In this document: positions 6,779-25,380 of the stretch, one piece after another
How the letters are laid out: every line of letters begins with the position of its first letter
Position numbering within the stretch: the first letter of the stretch is position 1
From: an uncultured Lachnospiraceae bacterium
GTDB taxonomy: Bacteria; Bacillota; Clostridia; Lachnospirales; Lachnospiraceae
Length of the DNA stretch: 32,048 nucleotides
NCBI GenBank assembly: GCA_902778245.1
Contig: CACYXH010000044.1
Span: 1-32,048 of the forward strand
Direction of reading: 5' to 3'
Position numbers and translations under genes: made by a program
The notes under the pieces: generated by a model
Seen by the model: the letters and a program-made list of their open reading frames with translations, nothing else
Database searches by the model: none
What the model was told of the DNA's origin: nothing

Positions 6779-6809
6779 TTGACATTTGGGTCCGAATGTG
6801 ATAGATAAT
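6779..6809 (+). promoter_or_regulatory. Promoter of the first yybP-ykoY riboswitch
   Basis: TTGACA at 6779-6784 and GATAAT at 6804-6809 have a 19-base spacer, slightly long. The aptamer begins about 12 bases after the -10 box, so the start lies at its edge. Confidence 0.55.
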
Positions 6810-6820
6810 TATCAACCAAT

Positions 6821-6913
6821 ACAAAGGGAGTAGCCAAACGCCGAAAGGCGGGCTTGAAATCGTCAGCTGATGCGAGAGCATCCGTATCGAGTGAGATGGC
6901 AAGACTTTTATTG
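6821..6913 (+). ncRNA. yybP-ykoY manganese riboswitch, copy 1
   Basis: The aptamer carries the conserved GGGAGTAGC (6826-6834), a CGCC-GAAA-GGCG hairpin (6839-6850), AATCGTCAGC (about 6858-6867), a GATGC-GAGA-GCATC hairpin (6869-6882) and the closing GCAAGAC. The outer helix pairs AAAG (6823-6826) with CTTT (6905-6908). These are features of the yybP-ykoY class, which binds Mn2+ and usually switches genes on. The 3' strand of the outer helix is also the 5' strand of the following terminator, so ligand binding should prevent termination. A second copy with covarying helices lies at 25258-25346. Confidence 0.8.
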
Positions 6914-6942
6914 TGACACAGTCATGATAGAAGTCTTTTTTT
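6902..6942 (+). terminator. Riboswitch expression-platform terminator, copy 1
   Basis: AGACTTTTATTGTGA (6902-6916) pairs with TCATGATAGAAGTCT (6922-6936) with a few G-U wobbles, followed by seven T. It overlaps the aptamer's closing helix. Confidence 0.8.
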
Positions 6943-6976
6943 ATTCCTGGAAAGAAGAAGCAAAGGAGGAGAGCAT

Positions 6977-16144: not shown

Positions 16145-16254
16145 CAAAGATGGTTGCGTTGTATGTGTTGCAATATTGTCAGAGAAGATATATCATGAAA
16201 ACAGTGGTTTGTTATGACCAGAATATAAGGAACTTTAAAGAGAAAGGCGCAGCA

Positions 16255-16815
16255 ATGAATGACGCAGAGATCATTACGTTATATTTTGGGAAGGATCAGC
16301 AGGCTATCGTTCAGACTGACCTGAAATACGGAAAGTATTGCCATGTCATTGCATGGAACATACTTTTTAACAACGAGGATTCGGAAGAGTGTGTGAATGA
16401 TGCTTATCTGGAGACATGGAACGCAATCCCCCCAACAAGGCCGTTTAGTTTAAAAGCATTTTTGGGAAAGATCACGCGAAACAATGCCATTAACCGATAT
16501 GAGAGAAATACCGCGCAGAAAAGAGGGGGCGGGGAGACTGCGGCCTGCCTTGAGGAACTGGGGGAATGTGTCTCCGGAAGCGATGAACTTGGCAGCCTGG
16601 ACGACTACAACCATCTCGTTTCCTGCATCAATGATTTTCTTGCCGGTCTTGGGAAAGAGCAGAGGATCATTTTCCTGCGAAGATATTGGTATGAAAGCTC
16701 TGTTTTGGATATTTCCAGAGATTATGGCATCGGAGAAAGTAAAGTGAAGGTGACTCTTTTGCGTCTTCGAAAAAGGCTGAAGGATTATCTGGAGAAGGAA
16801 GGTGTTGCGGTATGA
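16255..16815 (+). CDS. Sigma-70 family (ECF-like) RNA polymerase sigma factor
   Basis: 186 residues. Region 2 shows DSEECVNDAYLETWNAIPP and the promoter-melting FLGKITRNNAINRYER; region 4 shows LGKEQRIIFLRRYWYESSV and the helix-turn-helix DYGIGESKVKVTLLRLRKRL. It should redirect polymerase to a small regulon, perhaps including its own operon. I chose ATG 16255 because homologous proteins start with this MNDAE-like segment and AAAGG precedes it; upstream in-frame starts at 16150 and 16195 are possible. It overlaps the next gene by 4 bases (ATGA). Confidence 0.88.
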   Translation: MNDAEIITLYFGKDQQAIVQTDLKYGKYCHVIAWNILFNNEDSEECVNDAYLETWNAIPPTRPFSLKAFLGKITRNNAINRYERNTAQKRGGGETAACLEELGECVSGSDELGSLDDYNHLVSCINDFLAGLGKEQRIIFLRRYWYESSVLDISRDYGIGESKVKVTLLRLRKRLKDYLEKEGVAV

Positions 16816-17204
16816 AAGAAAAAGATCTTTTCAGGGCGATGACCGACATCGATGATAAATTTGTGCTGGAAGCCTCCCCGGACAATGTTCCTTCCAAAAT
16901 GGTCCCGTTATGGAAAAAAAAGAGTTTTCAGATTATCTCAGGATTGGCGGCAGCCTGCTTTGTCTTTGCGATTGGACTTGGAGTGTACCGCCTAAACCAT
17001 TCCCCAAAGAATGCTTCGGATGTTCCGCTTACGGAAACAGCGTATGAGGATTATTATGGCTATGCTCCGGAAGATATGGAGGAGCAGGATAATGCTGTTG
17101 ATATTGCGCAGCAGTCCAAAGACAGCGCTTCTGCTGTGGCGGAGACTGAGACGGAAAAAGAGAGCGAGACGGAAACGGAAGAAGAGATAAAAAGACAAAA
17201 ATAA
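16812..17204 (+). CDS. Single-pass membrane protein, probable anti-sigma partner
   Basis: 130 residues. The N-terminal 36 residues are cytoplasmic and charged, one membrane segment IISGLAAACFVFAIGLGVY lies at about 41-59, and the external part is rich in acidic residues, ending in a Glu/Thr repeat (ETETEKESETETEEE). Position and coupling to the sigma gene point to an anti-sigma factor, but no zinc-binding HxxxCxxC motif is present. Proteins at this position are often longer, so the low-complexity end may reflect truncation. The function is inference from context. Confidence 0.6.
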   Translation: MKEKDLFRAMTDIDDKFVLEASPDNVPSKMVPLWKKKSFQIISGLAAACFVFAIGLGVYRLNHSPKNASDVPLTETAYEDYYGYAPEDMEEQDNAVDIAQQSKDSASAVAETETEKESETETEEEIKRQK

Positions 17205-17236
17205 AATTTTAAGGAAAGTGTAACTTTTCCTGCGAT

Positions 17237-17280
17237 CCTCCTGCCTTTTTGTTTAAAGACATAAAACAAAAAGAAGGAGG
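17237..17280 (+). promoter_or_regulatory. Hairpin that hides the VWA ribosome site
   Basis: CCTCCT (17237-17242) pairs with AGGAGG (17275-17280), and CTTTTTGTTT (17245-17254) pairs with AAACAAAAAG (17264-17273) around a 9-base loop. Only a small internal bulge interrupts this 16-bp helix. The AGGAGG is the ribosome site for the ATG at 17289. The short TTTT after it could also give weak termination. Confidence 0.7.
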
Positions 17281-17288
17281 ATTTTGTT

Positions 17289-18896
17289 ATGAAAAGAAAA
17301 ATGATCACAGGGATTCTTTGCGTTGCTGCGGCTGTTATGCTTGGAGGATGCAGTATGATCCGGGATATGCGCAGTCTTTTGAATGTTAAGAGAGAGACGG
17401 AAAATGCGGCGACGGAAATATTGGAAGACACGGGAATCGAATTCGGATACGTTGAAGAAGATAGCTGCGAGGCATACCCGGAAATTTTTGAACCGGATTG
17501 GAATACGGAGGAGTATAAATTTAATGAAGAAAATGGGTGGTGCTCCGCTGTCACTTCACCTTTTTCTACCTTTTCTGCGGATGTAGATACCGCTTCTTAT
17601 GCCAATGTGCGAAGAATGCTGCTGGAAGGGAAGGAAGTGCCGGAGGCAGCGGTGCGGATAGAAGAAATGATTAATTATTTTGATTATGATTATCCTTCTG
17701 CCACCGGGAATGAGCCGTTTTCCGTCACCACAGAGATTGCTCCCTGCCCATGGAATGAGGATACAAAACTTCTGCTGGTTGGCCTTAAGGCAAGGGAAAT
17801 TCAGCAGGAGGAGAGGACGCCGTCCAATCTGGTATTTTTGATCGATGTGTCCGGATCTATGGATGAATATAATAAACTTCCGCTGGTGCAGCGGGCGTTC
17901 CGCTTATTGATCAATGAACTGGGGGAAGAAGATACAGTTTCCATCGTTACCTACGCAAATGAAGACCATATCGTGCTGGACGGAATATCCGGTTCGGAAA
18001 AAACGCTGCTTTGCGATACGGTAGAGGATCTGTATGCAAGTGGAGGTACCAACGGTTCCGACGGACTTATTATGGCGTATAAAATCGCAGAGGATCATTT
18101 CATCCAGGGAGGGAACAACCGGGTCATTCTTGCCACAGACGGTGATCTGAATATCGGGATGACGGATGAAGGATCTCTGACCAGACTGATCGAAGAAAAA
18201 GCAAAATCGGGAGTCTATCTGTCGGTGCTTGGCTTTGGAGAGGGCAATATTTCTGATACGAATATGGAAGCGCTGGCGGATCATGGAAACGGCAACTACA
18301 ATTACATTGACAGCATCAGTGAGGCGAGAAAAGTGCTGATCGACGAGGCCGGCGGTACTTTGTTCACCGTTGCAAAAGATGTAAAGCTGCAGGTGGAATT
18401 CAATCCGGAGAAAGTGAAGGGATACCGGCTGATCGGATATGAAAACAGAACCATGTCCGCCGAGGATTTTTCAGATGATACAAAGGACGGAGGGGAAATC
18501 GGAAGCGGACACACCGTCACTGCTCTGTATGAAATTGCTTCCACCGGTTCTTCATTTGAAATCAGTTCTGTGACATCAAAATATATTACGCCTGACGTGC
18601 CGGAAGGCTCCGGTGAATTCTCGGATGAGTGGGCGACGGTCCATATCTGTTACAAAGAGCCGGATGGAGATGAAAGTGTCCTCATGGATCATATTGTGGA
18701 CGAAACTGCCATTTCGGATCAGATGAGCGGCAATTTGTCCTGGGCAGCAGGAGTGGCCCAGGTCGGGATGGTATTGAAAGATTCTGAATATGCCGGTACC
18801 ACCGATCTTGAGGAAGTTCGCAGCCGCCTGAAGACGCTGACGGGCAATGACGAATTCAGGGAAGAATTTGTCTACATGATGAACAAAATAAAATAA
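17289..18896 (+). CDS. VWA-domain lipoprotein (YfbK-like)
   Basis: 535 residues. The start MKRKMITGILCVAAAVMLGG followed by Cys21 is a lipoprotein signal with lipobox LGGC, so the protein is anchored outside the membrane. A YfbK-type N-terminal region (ENGWCSAVTSPFSTFSADVD, about 82-101) precedes a von Willebrand A domain at about 176-360 with metal-site residues in FLIDVSGSMDE (about 188), SGGTNGSDG (about 252) and LATDGDLNIG (about 283). The C-terminal part fits the DUF3520 domain. It is the third gene of the sigma operon, suggesting a role in envelope signalling or stress; the ligand is unknown. Confidence 0.88.
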   Translation: MKRKMITGILCVAAAVMLGGCSMIRDMRSLLNVKRETENAATEILEDTGIEFGYVEEDSCEAYPEIFEPDWNTEEYKFNEENGWCSAVTSPFSTFSADVDTASYANVRRMLLEGKEVPEAAVRIEEMINYFDYDYPSATGNEPFSVTTEIAPCPWNEDTKLLLVGLKAREIQQEERTPSNLVFLIDVSGSMDEYNKLPLVQRAFRLLINELGEEDTVSIVTYANEDHIVLDGISGSEKTLLCDTVEDLYASGGTNGSDGLIMAYKIAEDHFIQGGNNRVILATDGDLNIGMTDEGSLTRLIEEKAKSGVYLSVLGFGEGNISDTNMEALADHGNGNYNYIDSISEARKVLIDEAGGTLFTVAKDVKLQVEFNPEKVKGYRLIGYENRTMSAEDFSDDTKDGGEIGSGHTVTALYEIASTGSSFEISSVTSKYITPDVPEGSGEFSDEWATVHICYKEPDGDESVLMDHIVDETAISDQMSGNLSWAAGVAQVGMVLKDSEYAGTTDLEEVRSRLKTLTGNDEFREEFVYMMNKIK

Positions 18897-18985: not shown

Positions 18986-19780
18986 ATGGAGAAACGACAA
19001 AGAAATCGGTCGATTCTGATCATTGCCGCCATAGAAGTGATCCTCATGGTTGCGGCATTGATGGTAGGTCCTCCGGATAGCGGAAGCAGTTCGATCAAAG
19101 AAGTCATGCGGGACGCGGTACTTCATGAGAAGGAAAAGGTGTATCTGTTTGGAAGGCTGGCGGCTAATCCGGGCCTGATCTCCGCTTTTACCGTGACGGG
19201 AATTATTTTGGTGTTAGCGCTGATCATTCGGATCTTTATAATTCCGAGATTTCAGACCATTCCCGGAAAATTCCAAATGCTGCTGGAACAGGCGGTGGGG
19301 ATGTTTGATGGGCTTGCGAAATCAAACAGTCCTCACAGAAACAAATTTTTGGGAGTCTATGTATTTACCGCCGGTACTTACATTTTTATCGGTACCCTGT
19401 TTGAACTGCTGGGGGTGCAGGTGGTTACAACCGAGGGGGCATCGATCTCTCTTCCGGCGCCGCTGGCGGATATTAATGGGGCTATTGCATTGGGTGTGAT
19501 GTCCTACGGCGTGATCCTGGCAGGGGGACTGATCTCAAATGGAGTGAAGGGTGTGCTGAATACCCTGAAGGATTTTTCCCTTCCGATATCCATGAGCTTC
19601 CGTCTATTTGGCGCTCTGCTCAGCGGCGCACTGGTGACGGAACTGGTTTACTATTATACAAATCTGAGCTTTGTGCTGCCGGTTATTGTCGGCGTACTGT
19701 TTACACTGCTGCACGCTCTGATCCAGGCATACGTGCTGACTATGCTGACGGCATTGTTTTACGGTGAAGTTTCTGAATAA
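18986..19780 (+). CDS. atpB: F-type ATP synthase subunit a
   Basis: 264 residues of the membrane stator that forms the ion half-channels. Membrane segments are spread through the protein. The essential arginine lies in SMSFRLFGALLSG (about 211-223), and the last helix contains HALIQAYVLTMLTALFYGE, matching the conserved Gln region of the E. coli protein. Sequence around the arginine is divergent (ALLSG instead of the common NMxAG). It is the first gene of the operon; no atpI precedes it. Confidence 0.93.
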   Translation: MEKRQRNRSILIIAAIEVILMVAALMVGPPDSGSSSIKEVMRDAVLHEKEKVYLFGRLAANPGLISAFTVTGIILVLALIIRIFIIPRFQTIPGKFQMLLEQAVGMFDGLAKSNSPHRNKFLGVYVFTAGTYIFIGTLFELLGVQVVTTEGASISLPAPLADINGAIALGVMSYGVILAGGLISNGVKGVLNTLKDFSLPISMSFRLFGALLSGALVTELVYYYTNLSFVLPVIVGVLFTLLHALIQAYVLTMLTALFYGEVSE

Positions 19781-19816
19781 TGTATGAATAAGAATAAAAT
19801 AAAGGAGAAAAGAAAC

Positions 19817-20200
19817 ATGAGAAAAGTATCAAAATTAATGAATTCTATCAGGCTATTTGCAGCAGCAGCAGCTTTGGTGCTGATCTGCAGCTTTGGAGTA
19901 TCCTCAGCTGTATATGCATCTGCGGAGGAGACCACACAGGAGGAGCAGACGATAGATGTGGTTCAGGAGGACAATGGAGGTACTTCTAAGGCGTTTGCGG
20001 CAGCTATCTGCGTGGGCCTTGCGGCAGCGGCCGGCGCGATCGGTATGGGTATGGCGATTTCTAAGGCTGCGGATGGTATTGCAAGACAGCCTGAGGCAGA
20101 CGGAAAAATCCGTACCAGCCTGATGCTTGGTCTGGTATTTATCGAGACCGCCATCATCTATGCGCTGATCATTGCGATCCTGATCATTTTCGTTCTCTGA
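19817..20200 (+). CDS. atpE: F-type ATP synthase subunit c with signal-peptide-like extension
   Basis: 127 residues, while the family is usually 70-90. Residues 1-36 look like a cleavable signal peptide (RLFAAAAALVLICSF, then AVYASAEE), followed by an acidic linker (about 35-53). The hairpin proper is FAAAICVGLAAAAGAIGMGM, the loop ARQPEADGKIR, and the second helix with the ion-binding glutamate in FIETAIIYAL. Aligned on RQPE to Ilyobacter c, the sodium ligand Gln32 is Met and Thr67 is Ala, so proton use seems likelier. AAAGGAG (19801-19807) supports start 19817. Confidence 0.93.
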   Translation: MRKVSKLMNSIRLFAAAAALVLICSFGVSSAVYASAEETTQEEQTIDVVQEDNGGTSKAFAAAICVGLAAAAGAIGMGMAISKAADGIARQPEADGKIRTSLMLGLVFIETAIIYALIIAILIIFVL

Positions 20201-20215
20201 TAAGGCGGTGAGATT

Positions 20216-20716
20216 ATGCCATTAAATATTGATTTTCAGCAGATTTTACTTCATATGTTTAATGTCGTCCTACTGTTCGGGATCCTGTACCTGCTTCTTT
20301 ACAAACCGGTGAAGGATTTTATGGATAAACGCGTAAAAGAGTATGCGGATATGGACGCGGAGGCGAAGGAAGCCTTGGGGAAGGCAAAACAGGAGCAGGA
20401 AACCTATGAGCAGAAACTCCAGAGTGTGTACAAGGAGATTGCCCGGCTTCGGGAAACTGCTGTAAAAGAACGGGAGACGGAAGTTGCGCAAATTCTGGAA
20501 AGCGCGAATGCCCAGGCTGCTTCTATCCTTGCCAAAGCCCGCGCAGAAGGCGCGGCTGAGCATGACCGGCTGATCCAAAGTGCCGGAAGCGAACTGCGTG
20601 ATATGATCACATCCGCGGCGCAAAAACTGACCTACAAGGATGTCTCCGATGCCTATGACAGCTTCTTGAATGCAGGAAATAAAACAGATTCCGGGAAAGG
20701 TGATGTAAATGAATAG
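20216..20716 (+). CDS. atpF: F-type ATP synthase subunit b
   Basis: 166 residues: one N-terminal membrane helix (about 10-28, MFNVVLLFGILYLLLYKPV) followed by a long charged coiled coil rich in Glu, Lys and Ala that forms the peripheral stalk. Length is normal, so the delta N-terminal domain is not fused here, unlike in mycobacterial b-delta. Its last 8 bases overlap the alpha gene start. Confidence 0.93.
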   Translation: MPLNIDFQQILLHMFNVVLLFGILYLLLYKPVKDFMDKRVKEYADMDAEAKEALGKAKQEQETYEQKLQSVYKEIARLRETAVKERETEVAQILESANAQAASILAKARAEGAAEHDRLIQSAGSELRDMITSAAQKLTYKDVSDAYDSFLNAGNKTDSGKGDVNE

Positions 20717-22439
20717 GGCAATTCTATACAGCAATGCCGAGCCGAGTCCGAAGCAGCGGGAGAAGTTTGTAGAATTCCTGCGGGGAAAATATGGAGAAGA
20801 TTACGAACTTGTCTGGGAGCAGGAAGAGGTAGAGGGAAATGGGTTCCGCCTTGCAGTAGGAACAGAGGTTTATGACTGGAGTCTCCAGGGCAGGATTGCC
20901 CAGCTTCGGGAGACCCTTCAAAAAGTAAAAGCGGAGGGAAAATTGATCCCTCTTTTAAAGGAGACGGTGCATGACTGGGTTCCTCAGGCTCTTGCCGAAG
21001 AAATCGGTACGGTGGAATCCGTGGGCGACGGGATTGCCACGGTATCGGGACTGGACAATGCCGTTTACGGTGAGATCCTGATCTTCCAGGGCGGCGTCCG
21101 GGGAATGGTGATGGAACTGCAGCAGGAGTTCCTGGGTTGTATTTTGTTTGATGATGATGACAATGTCAGCGCCGGAAGCCGGGTCAGCCGTACCAAAAGG
21201 ACAGCAGCGGTACCCGTTGGAGAGGGCTTCCTCGGTCGCGTGGTAAATGCTCTGGGTGTACCTGTAGATGGAAAGGAGTCTGTCCGCGAGGACGGATACC
21301 GTCCCATTGAACATCCGGCACCGGCGATCATTGACCGCCAGCCGGTGAATGAACCTATGGAGACAGGGATCCTGGCCATTGACTCCATGTTTCCCATTGG
21401 CAGAGGCCAGCGTGAGCTGATCATTGGGGATCGCCAGACCGGTAAGACCGCAATCGCTATTGACGCGATCCTGAACCAGAAGGGCAGAGATGTTATTTGT
21501 ATCTATGTAGCCATCGGCCAGAAAGAGAGCTCTGTGGCTCAGCTGACAGAGAATCTAAGAAAACGCGGAGCTATGGATTATACCATCATTGTGATGGCGG
21601 GAGCCTCCGATTCTGACCCTATGCTGTATCTGGCGCCGTATTCCGCTACCGCAATGGGCGAATATTTTATGGAAAAAGGAAAAGATGTTCTCATCGTGTA
21701 TGATGATCTTTCCAAGCATGCGGTAGCCTATCGCGCGATTTCCCTGCTGCTGGATCGTTCTCCGGGGCGTGAGGCATATCCGGGAGACGTATTTTATCTC
21801 CACTCCAGACTGTTGGAGCGGTCCGCGCATTTAAGTGATGAAAAGGGAGGCGGCAGTATGACCGCGCTTCCCATCGTTGAGACACAAAACAGTGATATTT
21901 CCGCGTATATTCCGACGAATATCATTTCAATCACCGACGGACAGCTGTTTCTGGAGGATGACCTGTTCTTTGCCGGACAGCGTCCTGCGGTAAATGTAGG
22001 TCTTTCGGTGTCCCGAGTGGGCGGAGACGCCCAGACAAAGGCGATGAAAAAGTCAGCCGGAGCGCTCCGTCTGGACCTTGCGCAGTACCGGGAGATGGAA
22101 GTGTTTACTCAGTTTGCCAGTGATCTGGATGATACGACAAAGAGGCAGCTTCTCTACGGCCAGGGGTTGATGCGTATGCTGCGTCAGAAGCAGTATCATC
22201 CCATGAGCCAGCATCAGCAAGTTGTTGTTTTGTGCGCTGCATTGGGACATTGCATGCAAAATATTCCGGAAACCCAGATTGAAACGTACGTAAACCGGCT
22301 GATCGGCCAGATGGAACAGACCCAGTCTGCTCTTTGCAATAAGATCGACCGTGAGGGCATTTTGACGGATGCGGAGCGTACTCAGATCCAGGAAGAGGCA
22401 AAACAGGTGGCAGAGCAGTTTATTAAGGAGACAGAGTAG
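20709..22439 (+). CDS. atpA: ATP synthase subunit alpha with N-terminal delta-like domain
   Basis: 576 residues; alpha is normally about 500. Residues 1 to about 70 resemble the C-terminal part of delta/OSCP: EPSPKQREKFVEFLRGKYG, then VYDWSLQGRIAQLRETL (compare the delta ending with its G-x-R-GRL-x-L). From about residue 97 it is standard alpha: EIGTVESVGDGIATVSGL, Walker A GDRQTGKT (about 240), SRLLERSAHLSDEKGGGSMT. No other delta gene lies in the operon, and the six-helix N-terminal domain of delta is absent. An internal TTG at 20943 with GGAGG upstream would give a 498-residue ordinary alpha. Confidence 0.93.
   Translation: MNRAILYSNAEPSPKQREKFVEFLRGKYGEDYELVWEQEEVEGNGFRLAVGTEVYDWSLQGRIAQLRETLQKVKAEGKLIPLLKETVHDWVPQALAEEIGTVESVGDGIATVSGLDNAVYGEILIFQGGVRGMVMELQQEFLGCILFDDDDNVSAGSRVSRTKRTAAVPVGEGFLGRVVNALGVPVDGKESVREDGYRPIEHPAPAIIDRQPVNEPMETGILAIDSMFPIGRGQRELIIGDRQTGKTAIAIDAILNQKGRDVICIYVAIGQKESSVAQLTENLRKRGAMDYTIIVMAGASDSDPMLYLAPYSATAMGEYFMEKGKDVLIVYDDLSKHAVAYRAISLLLDRSPGREAYPGDVFYLHSRLLERSAHLSDEKGGGSMTALPIVETQNSDISAYIPTNIISITDGQLFLEDDLFFAGQRPAVNVGLSVSRVGGDAQTKAMKKSAGALRLDLAQYREMEVFTQFASDLDDTTKRQLLYGQGLMRMLRQKQYHPMSQHQQVVVLCAALGHCMQNIPETQIETYVNRLIGQMEQTQSALCNKIDREGILTDAERTQIQEEAKQVAEQFIKETE
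20933..20945 (+). promoter_or_regulatory. Possible internal translation start inside atpA
   Basis: GGAGG (20933-20937), four or five bases, then TTG (20943-20945), which is codon 79 of the atpA frame. Starting there gives 498 residues, close to a normal alpha. This could produce both a fusion and a plain alpha. Confidence 0.45.
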
Positions 22440-22442
22440 CCT

Positions 22443-25173
<2,731 letters not shown>

Positions 25174-25257: not shown

Positions 25258-25346
25258 GTTCAGGGAGTAGCTAAACACCGGAAGGTGTATTTGAAATCGT
25301 CAGCCGGTACGATGAGTACCCGTATCAAATGAGATAGCAAGACTGA
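25258..25346 (+). ncRNA. yybP-ykoY manganese riboswitch, copy 2
   Basis: Same conserved blocks as the first copy: GGGAGTAGC (25263-25271), AATCGTCAGC, CCGTATC and GCAAGAC. Helices differ by compensating changes: CACC-GGAA-GGTG replaces CGCC-GAAA-GGCG, GGTAC-GATGA-GTACC replaces GATGC-GAGA-GCATC, and the closing helix is TCAG/CTGA instead of AAAG/CTTT. This covariation strongly supports a structured RNA. As in copy 1, the closing strand is part of the terminator, predicting a Mn2+ ON switch. Confidence 0.82.
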
Positions 25347-25380
25347 GCAGTGAATAAAACATCACTGCCCGGTCTTTTTT
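25341..25380 (+). terminator. Riboswitch expression-platform terminator, copy 2
   Basis: GACTGAGCAGTGA (25341-25353) pairs with TCACTGCCCGGTC (25362-25374) with one mismatch and one wobble, followed by six T. Confidence 0.88.

Follow-up and report, generated by a model that had tools for sequence, protein, structure and literature searches.

The window considered here, a 32,048-nucleotide contig (CACYXH010000044.1) from an uncultured Lachnospiraceae bacterium (GCA_902778245.1), carries a complete ATP synthase operon at positions 18986–25173 with the gene order a, c, b, alpha, gamma, beta, epsilon. Comparisons of sequence and of predicted fold show that each alpha subunit made from its atpA gene (20709–22439, + strand, 576 residues) bears the C-terminal domain of delta at its N-terminus. 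We lean somewhat towards the view, reached partly by analogy, that the product is an H+-type enzyme from which the N-terminal domain of delta has gone, that it offers three docks for the stalk and that some or all copies of it carry more than one stalk. The principle of a delta–alpha fusion was already described in 2025 (PMC12229609). What is new here is a large family in Clostridia that includes full-length fusions, the absence of the delta N-terminal domain in 12 clades, a division between H+-type and Na+-type operons, and the finding that no internal start is conserved.

An earlier interpretation made from the letters of the window alone, which we call the sequence-only reading, had assigned the same open reading frame to alpha, and both peptides that it quoted are found there. 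It also proposed that the N-terminal part of alpha is the C-terminal half of delta, and this is borne out by profile and fold comparisons. When the whole of alpha was searched, the Pfam OSCP profile (PF00213) matched residues 6–70 with positions 107–172 of its 172 positions, with an expectation value (E) of 5.9e-4 and a score of 20.4 bits, which is under the cut-off of 22.3 bits. With residues 1–100 alone the match covered residues 4–70 (profile positions 105–172) and rose above the cut-off (24.2 bits, E 4e-5). Over these residues the NCBIfam delta models gave weak matches too (best E 3.8e-4), with scores that fall far short of their cut-offs. Profile positions 1–104, which describe the helical N-terminal domain of delta, are unmatched in the window alpha. 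From the Pfam match, the predicted fold and the family profile, alpha residues 4–70 (20718–20918, + strand) are the stalk-binding C-terminal domain of delta/OSCP. They are followed by a linker and the N-terminal helix of alpha (residues 71–99; 20919–21005, + strand), which are modelled mostly with low confidence, and the atpA model TIGR00962 matches residues 80–572 with 718.5 bits (cut-off 484.45).

The structure of residues 1–100 was predicted from 44 aligned relatives and has the order strand–helix–strand–strand–strand–helix. The mean predicted local distance difference test (pLDDT) value exceeds 90 in every block of residues 1–40; confidence is low after about residue 75, with values of 64, 48 and 46 for the blocks of residues 71–100. 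In a structure search with this model the first 41 PDB matches were chains of F-type ATP synthases, which we take to be delta/OSCP or b–delta chains from the entries, chain lengths and names. V-ATPase chains appear from rank 42 and an engineered delta–alpha fusion (PDB entry 9jc1) occupies ranks 43 and 44. A profile of the junction, built from 44 relatives and compared with PDB sequences, found this same engineered fusion as its best match (E 1.6e-11), followed by the delta subunits of E. coli (7.1e-8) and Bacillus PS3 (9.1e-8), and the family profile aligns to 9jc1 over the domain and the engineered linker with one gap. In a model of full-length alpha parts of the core were predicted with little confidence, and this model was left unused. 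Conservation across relatives, which had been proposed as a check, is seen in the delta domain: P12, G45, F46 and D56 are invariant, Q16, W57, S58, G61, R62 and Q65 are nearly so, and the residues of the delta domain are equally conserved in full-length and C-terminal-only fusions. As judged from sequence, the architecture is real, conserved and functional-looking.

The b and alpha genes overlap by eight nucleotides, the alpha start lying inside the last codons of b, so that the operon has no room for a separate delta gene or for a delta N-terminal domain. A mis-annotated start concealing the N-terminal domain could be ruled out, since the upstream space is absent. A profile search of the window b at E values up to 1 gave no match to PF00213. 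The b-to-alpha gap is −29 to +3 nucleotides in 23 of 24 C-terminal-only rows, near-copies included; in the remaining row (L133) the open reading frame extends back into b. The proposed absence of a separate atpH thus holds for the operon but not for the genome bin, in which a complete delta occurs on another contig, as described below.

The closest known counterpart is an engineered Bacillus PS3 FoF1, in which delta residues 105–178 were fused to alpha so as to remove its N-terminal domain, which occupies the three-fold axis (Ueno et al., 2025; PMC12229609). On that enzyme as many as three stalks form, each accompanied by an a subunit; its content of a rose 2.2-fold and that of b 1.8-fold, and its H+/ATP ratio was 5.8 compared with 3.0 (PMC12229609). 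The window protein shares its cut point, its missing N-terminal domain and a near-equal junction. In contrast, the engineered enzyme was made from a canonical one with a truncated epsilon, and stalk number and H+/ATP were measured on it, whereas the window supplies genes only. In the reading favoured here, the operon encodes an F-type ATP synthase whose rotor is of H+ type and whose delta has been joined to alpha and has lost its N-terminal domain. The C-terminal domain of delta, judged from known structures, would be the dock for the b2 stalk; with that dock covalently tethered to alpha the stalk would be held in place, so that the domain of delta that grips alpha would be superfluous. By analogy with the engineered enzyme, F1 would gain three equivalent docks and a free three-fold axis, and some or all enzymes would bear more than one b2 stalk, each with its own a subunit. 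More protons would then be spent per ATP, which would allow operation at a low proton-motive force. Of the parts of this proposal, three covalent docks per enzyme are nearly certain and docking of b2 on the fused delta domains is very likely, while the presence of more than one stalk per enzyme, argued by analogy, has about an even chance.

The sequence-only reading knew of no described fusion of delta to alpha; in this it was mistaken, as the natural architecture had been reported for Acidaminococcus fermentans and two UniProt entries, and a multi-stalk enzyme was proposed there (PMC12229609). Compared by description alone, the Acidaminococcus protein is like that of the window in having the C-terminal domain of delta on alpha and no N-terminal domain. 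The family described here differs from it in being found mostly in Lachnospiraceae, in having an H+-type c beside an Na+-type enzyme in many genomes, and in including full-length fusions. Beyond PMC12229609 no description of a delta–alpha fusion was found in the full-text literature consulted (PMC4478896, PMC7793690 and PMC11187502); subscription papers lay mostly outside this search, so that the result is no proof of absence.

Two other systems bear comparison. The PDB entries for the Chloroflexus aurantiacus enzyme (9itj and related entries) list, per entry, three alpha (18 chains over six), two delta (12 over six) and four b (72 over 18), and from these chain counts this natural F-type enzyme would seem to have two stalks. 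If so, a structure of an F-type enzyme from nature with several stalks already exists, and a complete delta need not forbid more than one stalk. The best PDB match of the window b is the b subunit of this enzyme (E 5.9e-10; the next match has E 0.0077). The Chloroflexus delta (157 residues) differs in being separate and unfused, and 9itk lists 69–70 residues per delta chain. In mycobacteria, as in the window, delta is joined to another subunit of the enzyme; there the partner is b, and the fusion is present in one copy per enzyme. The window b, in contrast, is plain and the partner is alpha, which is present in three copies.

The fusion is widespread among relatives. In a first survey of 61 genomes (the bin itself and 60 relatives) a fused frame was found in 11, of which ten also contain a separate delta. 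Five of the 11 fusions retain most of delta (open frames of 673–715 residues) and six have the C-terminal domain only (576–603 residues), one of the latter (G016) scoring below the Pfam cut-off. Four low-scoring hits of this survey (G027, G025, G040 and G004) were fetched and rejected, as none contains an F-type alpha. A scan of GTDB species genomes with alpha-barrel patterns gave at least 553 relatives, of which the best 80 were examined. These comprise 59 full-length fusions, 18 C-terminal-only fusions, two unfused loci and one split frame (L116), making 77 fused loci; because the loci were ranked by likeness to the fused query, these shares are no estimate of frequency. According to the record titles they are mostly from Lachnospiraceae, with Caproiciproducens, Sedimentibacter and others also represented. 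In the two unfused loci (L064 and L107) delta and alpha are adjoining genes in the same frame and are nested among full-length fusions in the tree, which possibly represents fission. The fused form is the only one present in four of the 13 genomes searched for this, namely G011, Sedimentibacter saalensis DSM 13558, Caproiciproducens galactitolivorans and Anaerosacchariphilus polymeriproducens. From a wider sample of 299 genomes of the phylum, 22 with weak or multiple OSCP matches among those listed were chosen and 16 loci were read; 12 of these are C-terminal-only fusions and the other four are a delta with two C-terminal domains, a free 80-residue domain and two N-terminal delta fragments.

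We also note some unusual arrangements among these loci. The delta of L212 (genome G113), a 290-residue open reading frame, contains two successive C-terminal domains, and the alpha next to it is unfused; such a delta may by itself offer two stalk docks. In L214 (G330) an 80-residue frame ahead of a plain alpha is a free delta C-terminal domain without the N-terminal domain. L211 (G212) and L215 (G283) contain only the N-terminal half of delta, with no other ATP synthase gene within the fetched stretch, and the 782-residue alpha frame of L066 has one nearly whole and one partial delta before alpha.

The history of the family was examined with a tree of the alpha core and beta (104 rows), from which the delta columns were excluded. 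The C-terminal-only form falls into 12 clades composed solely of that form, and parsimony gives 12 changes, eight of them forced by starred branches. A single clade of C-terminal-only rows is rejected by the approximately unbiased (AU) test, with p = 1.5e-4 for 14 rows and p = 2.5e-37 for the 11 rows that remain without the three-row group of the window; the test used a 33-row tree, and its groups were named after the first tree had been seen. Among the N-terminal domains of delta, those of 61 full-length fusions cluster together and are separate from the 18 canonical domains. All 61 are closer to another fused domain than to any canonical one, and the degree of identity runs parallel to that of the alpha core (Spearman 0.68), which makes a secondary gain of the N-terminal domain in the full-length rows unlikely. 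The simplest reading of these sequences is a single fusion in the clade of the window followed by repeated loss of the N-terminal domain. The group of the window (window, G011 and G016, with G318 added in another tree) branches first and on long branches, and for this group alone the order of events is therefore less sure. C-terminal-only fusions from other classes form a supported group of their own, and the outgroup contains Na+-type rows only. The suggestion in the sequence-only reading that the helical domain of delta becomes dispensable upon fusion agrees with its absence from 12 separate clades.

The c subunits were compared over 91 rows of the clade (88 fused, two unfused and one split, four duplicate loci included) and 19 canonical operons, of which 18 are from genomes with a fused operon and one (G068) is from a genome with an unfused member. 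At the position that Gln or Glu occupies in Na+ rotors the clade rows have Ile (88) or Met (3), and their carboxylate Glu is followed by Ala, Thr or Gly. All 19 canonical operons have Gln (17) or Glu (2) at the first position, together with Glu-Thr. In the alignment the window c has Met at the position of the Na+-ligand Gln and Glu-Thr at the carboxylate, and would be proton-type by the ion-site rule. Applying the same rules, we take the c subunits of the fused clade to be H+-type and those of the canonical operons to be Na+-type; judged by these residues, the two kinds of operon look to be so divided within the same genomes. Pseudobutyrivibrio ruminis DSM 9787 has an operon of the family with an H+-type c and a full-length fusion (L113) beside a canonical operon with an Na+-type c (L156). 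According to a review, P. ruminis uses one Na+ and one H+ ATP synthase (PMC11187502), and we infer that L113 encodes the latter. The likeness to the window thus lies in a family operon with an H+-type c beside a canonical Na+-type one; unlike the window, L113 is a full-length fusion, and the accessible part of the review makes no mention of a fusion. A link between the fused enzyme and the hydrogenase Ech was considered and rejected: the Ech marker PF00346 was found in four of 13 genomes and is missing from that of the window, in which an Rnf marker was found.

In the genome bin (2.96 Mb in 180 contigs, 95.4% complete and 2.2% contaminated) OSCP is matched once more, by a complete delta that lies on contig C121 (E 2.5e-41). 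It belongs to an operon of canonical order, a–c–b–delta–alpha–gamma–beta–epsilon, which fills the 5.7-kb contig (a being cut by the contig end) and has its own alpha, its own beta and a c of Na+ type by sequence. The existence of a complete atpH elsewhere in the genome had been named beforehand as telling against the fusion. Such a gene is indeed present, but the fusion reading stands because the gene is part of a separate operon with a c that looks Na+-type. The C121 DNA is 67–82% identical to the canonical operons of other members of the genus. In comparison, the contig of the window shares 98.6–99.95% identity with one from G011, a different genome in the same genus, and over 13.3 kb contig C17 matches a further contig of G011 at 99.97% identity. 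No canonical operon was found in G011, where the matches to C121 sit within the fused operon and the fused alpha is the only delta-like (OSCP) match. As G011 is 94% complete, this absence is likely rather than certain. The fused alpha of G011 and its beta are the sole rotary-ATPase-type pair detected there; a third PF00006 match (E 6.9e-28, 480 residues) is presumably Rho. Since the near-identical G011 shows no canonical operon, C121 may have been wrongly binned and the fused enzyme may be the sole ATP synthase of the source organism.

The sequence-only reading saw a puzzle in three delta domains facing one stalk. The puzzle is real, as no internal start is conserved that would dilute the fused form and the engineered enzyme, with three docks, sets a precedent for up to three stalks. 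Internal starts were sought by a scan of ribosome-binding energies with a threshold of ≤ −6 kcal/mol, which was reached at four of 83 junctions compared with 69 of 83 true starts and 136 of 830 control stretches. It superseded a scan with a motif list (13 of 84 junctions, 80 of 588 controls) that recovered only ten of 84 true starts. The possibility that the window alpha is made in a long and a short form, giving about one delta domain per enzyme, arises from an internal TTG after GGAGG some 21 codons before the core, where the energy is −10.0 kcal/mol compared with −9.2 kcal/mol at the true start. We consider it very improbable, as the site is missing from the 99% identical alpha of G011 (best −0.2 kcal/mol) and from L049 (−2.2 kcal/mol) and junctions are poorer in such sites than the controls. 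It is scarcely credible that the extension is a vestige and that the separate delta of C121 serves the fused enzyme. A complete delta on C121, and a separate delta in ten of the 11 surveyed genomes with a fused frame, would allow this, but the delta domain is conserved, four of the 13 searched genomes have the fused form only and the C121 operon encodes an alpha, a beta and an Na+-type c of its own.

The alternative of most consequence is that the fusion acts as a covalent tether only, with one stalk on one dock and the other two idle, owing either to a limited supply of a or b or to a rotor that cannot accommodate a second a subunit. We regard this as quite possible, although well short of an even chance. 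Several observations favour it and count against a multi-stalk enzyme. PMC12229609 states that no ATP synthase so far has more than one a subunit, the genes of the operon are single copies, and ribosome-binding energies in the C-terminal-only operons give no hint that a or b is translated more strongly than gamma. The majority of the 80 loci (59) are fusions of the full-length kind, which keep the domain expected on the axis. No structure or stoichiometry was found for the family, and more than one stalk is argued by analogy with an engineered enzyme that itself pumps less actively than the wild type and of which 15, 51, 26 and 8% of particles had zero, one, two and three stalks, respectively, by cryo-electron microscopy (PMC12229609). 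Set against a single stalk are the absence in 12 clades of the domain that enforces it in the engineered enzyme, the presence of a delta domain on every alpha, and the Chloroflexus chain counts. We consider it plausible that members of this family assemble with several stalks, and the proposal can be tested. The broader proposal is more tentative, and we place it slightly below an even chance: that Bacillota evolved natural multi-stalk ATP synthases many times, with the fusion providing three docks and the N-terminal domain of delta then being lost independently, each loss switching an H+-driven enzyme from one stalk to up to three, in many genomes beside an Na+-driven enzyme of normal gear in the same cell.

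The number of protons used per ATP is usually thought to be fixed by the size of the rotor alone, on the assumption of one stalk and one a subunit. If multi-stalk assembly is true, additional stalks would act as a low gear suited to a weak proton-motive force, multiplying the protons used per ATP, and genomes with an Na+-type canonical and an H+-type fused operon would be a setting in which such a gear could help. The family has culturable members that, by repeated loss, are without the domain that limits stalk number in the engineered enzyme, so that a change of gear by stalk number in nature is directly testable.

The remaining genes of the operon are all on the + strand, and their order was confirmed by open reading frames and profile matches as it had been read from the letters. 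Subunit a (atpB, 18986–19780, 264 residues) matches Pfam ATP-synt_A with E 8.9e-21, subunit c (atpE, 19784–20200, 138 residues) matches ATP-synt_C with E 7.1e-16 and subunit b (atpF, 20216–20716, 166 residues) matches ATP-synt_B with E 6.5e-14. Downstream of atpA lie gamma (atpG, 22443–23354, 303 residues; Pfam ATP-synt, E 1.2e-87), beta (atpD, 23351–24757, 468 residues; TIGR01039, 778.8 bits) and epsilon (atpC, 24754–25173, 139 residues), which has both of its domains (PF02823 and PF00401). The models for the alternate N-type F-ATPase score below their cut-offs for both alpha (TIGR03324, 612.2 compared with 750.5) and beta (TIGR03305, 585.9 compared with 752). The window c has an N-terminal extension of about 60 residues that resembles a signal peptide by eye; similar extensions are present in G011, G016 and G318.

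Immediately upstream of the operon, at 16150–18896, are genes for a sigma-70-type factor, a small membrane-protein-like open reading frame, which may be the anti-sigma factor of its neighbour, and a YfbK-like von Willebrand factor protein. An intergenic element that looks RNA-like by eye is repeated at 6795–6944 and 25262–25375 of the window. A search against Rfam gave no match at the gathering score and none that was credible at E values up to 5. Its layout consists of GGAGTAG, a small hairpin with paired differences, the shared stretch AAATCGTCAGC and a terminator-like hairpin with a T run, and many partial copies of it occur across the genus.

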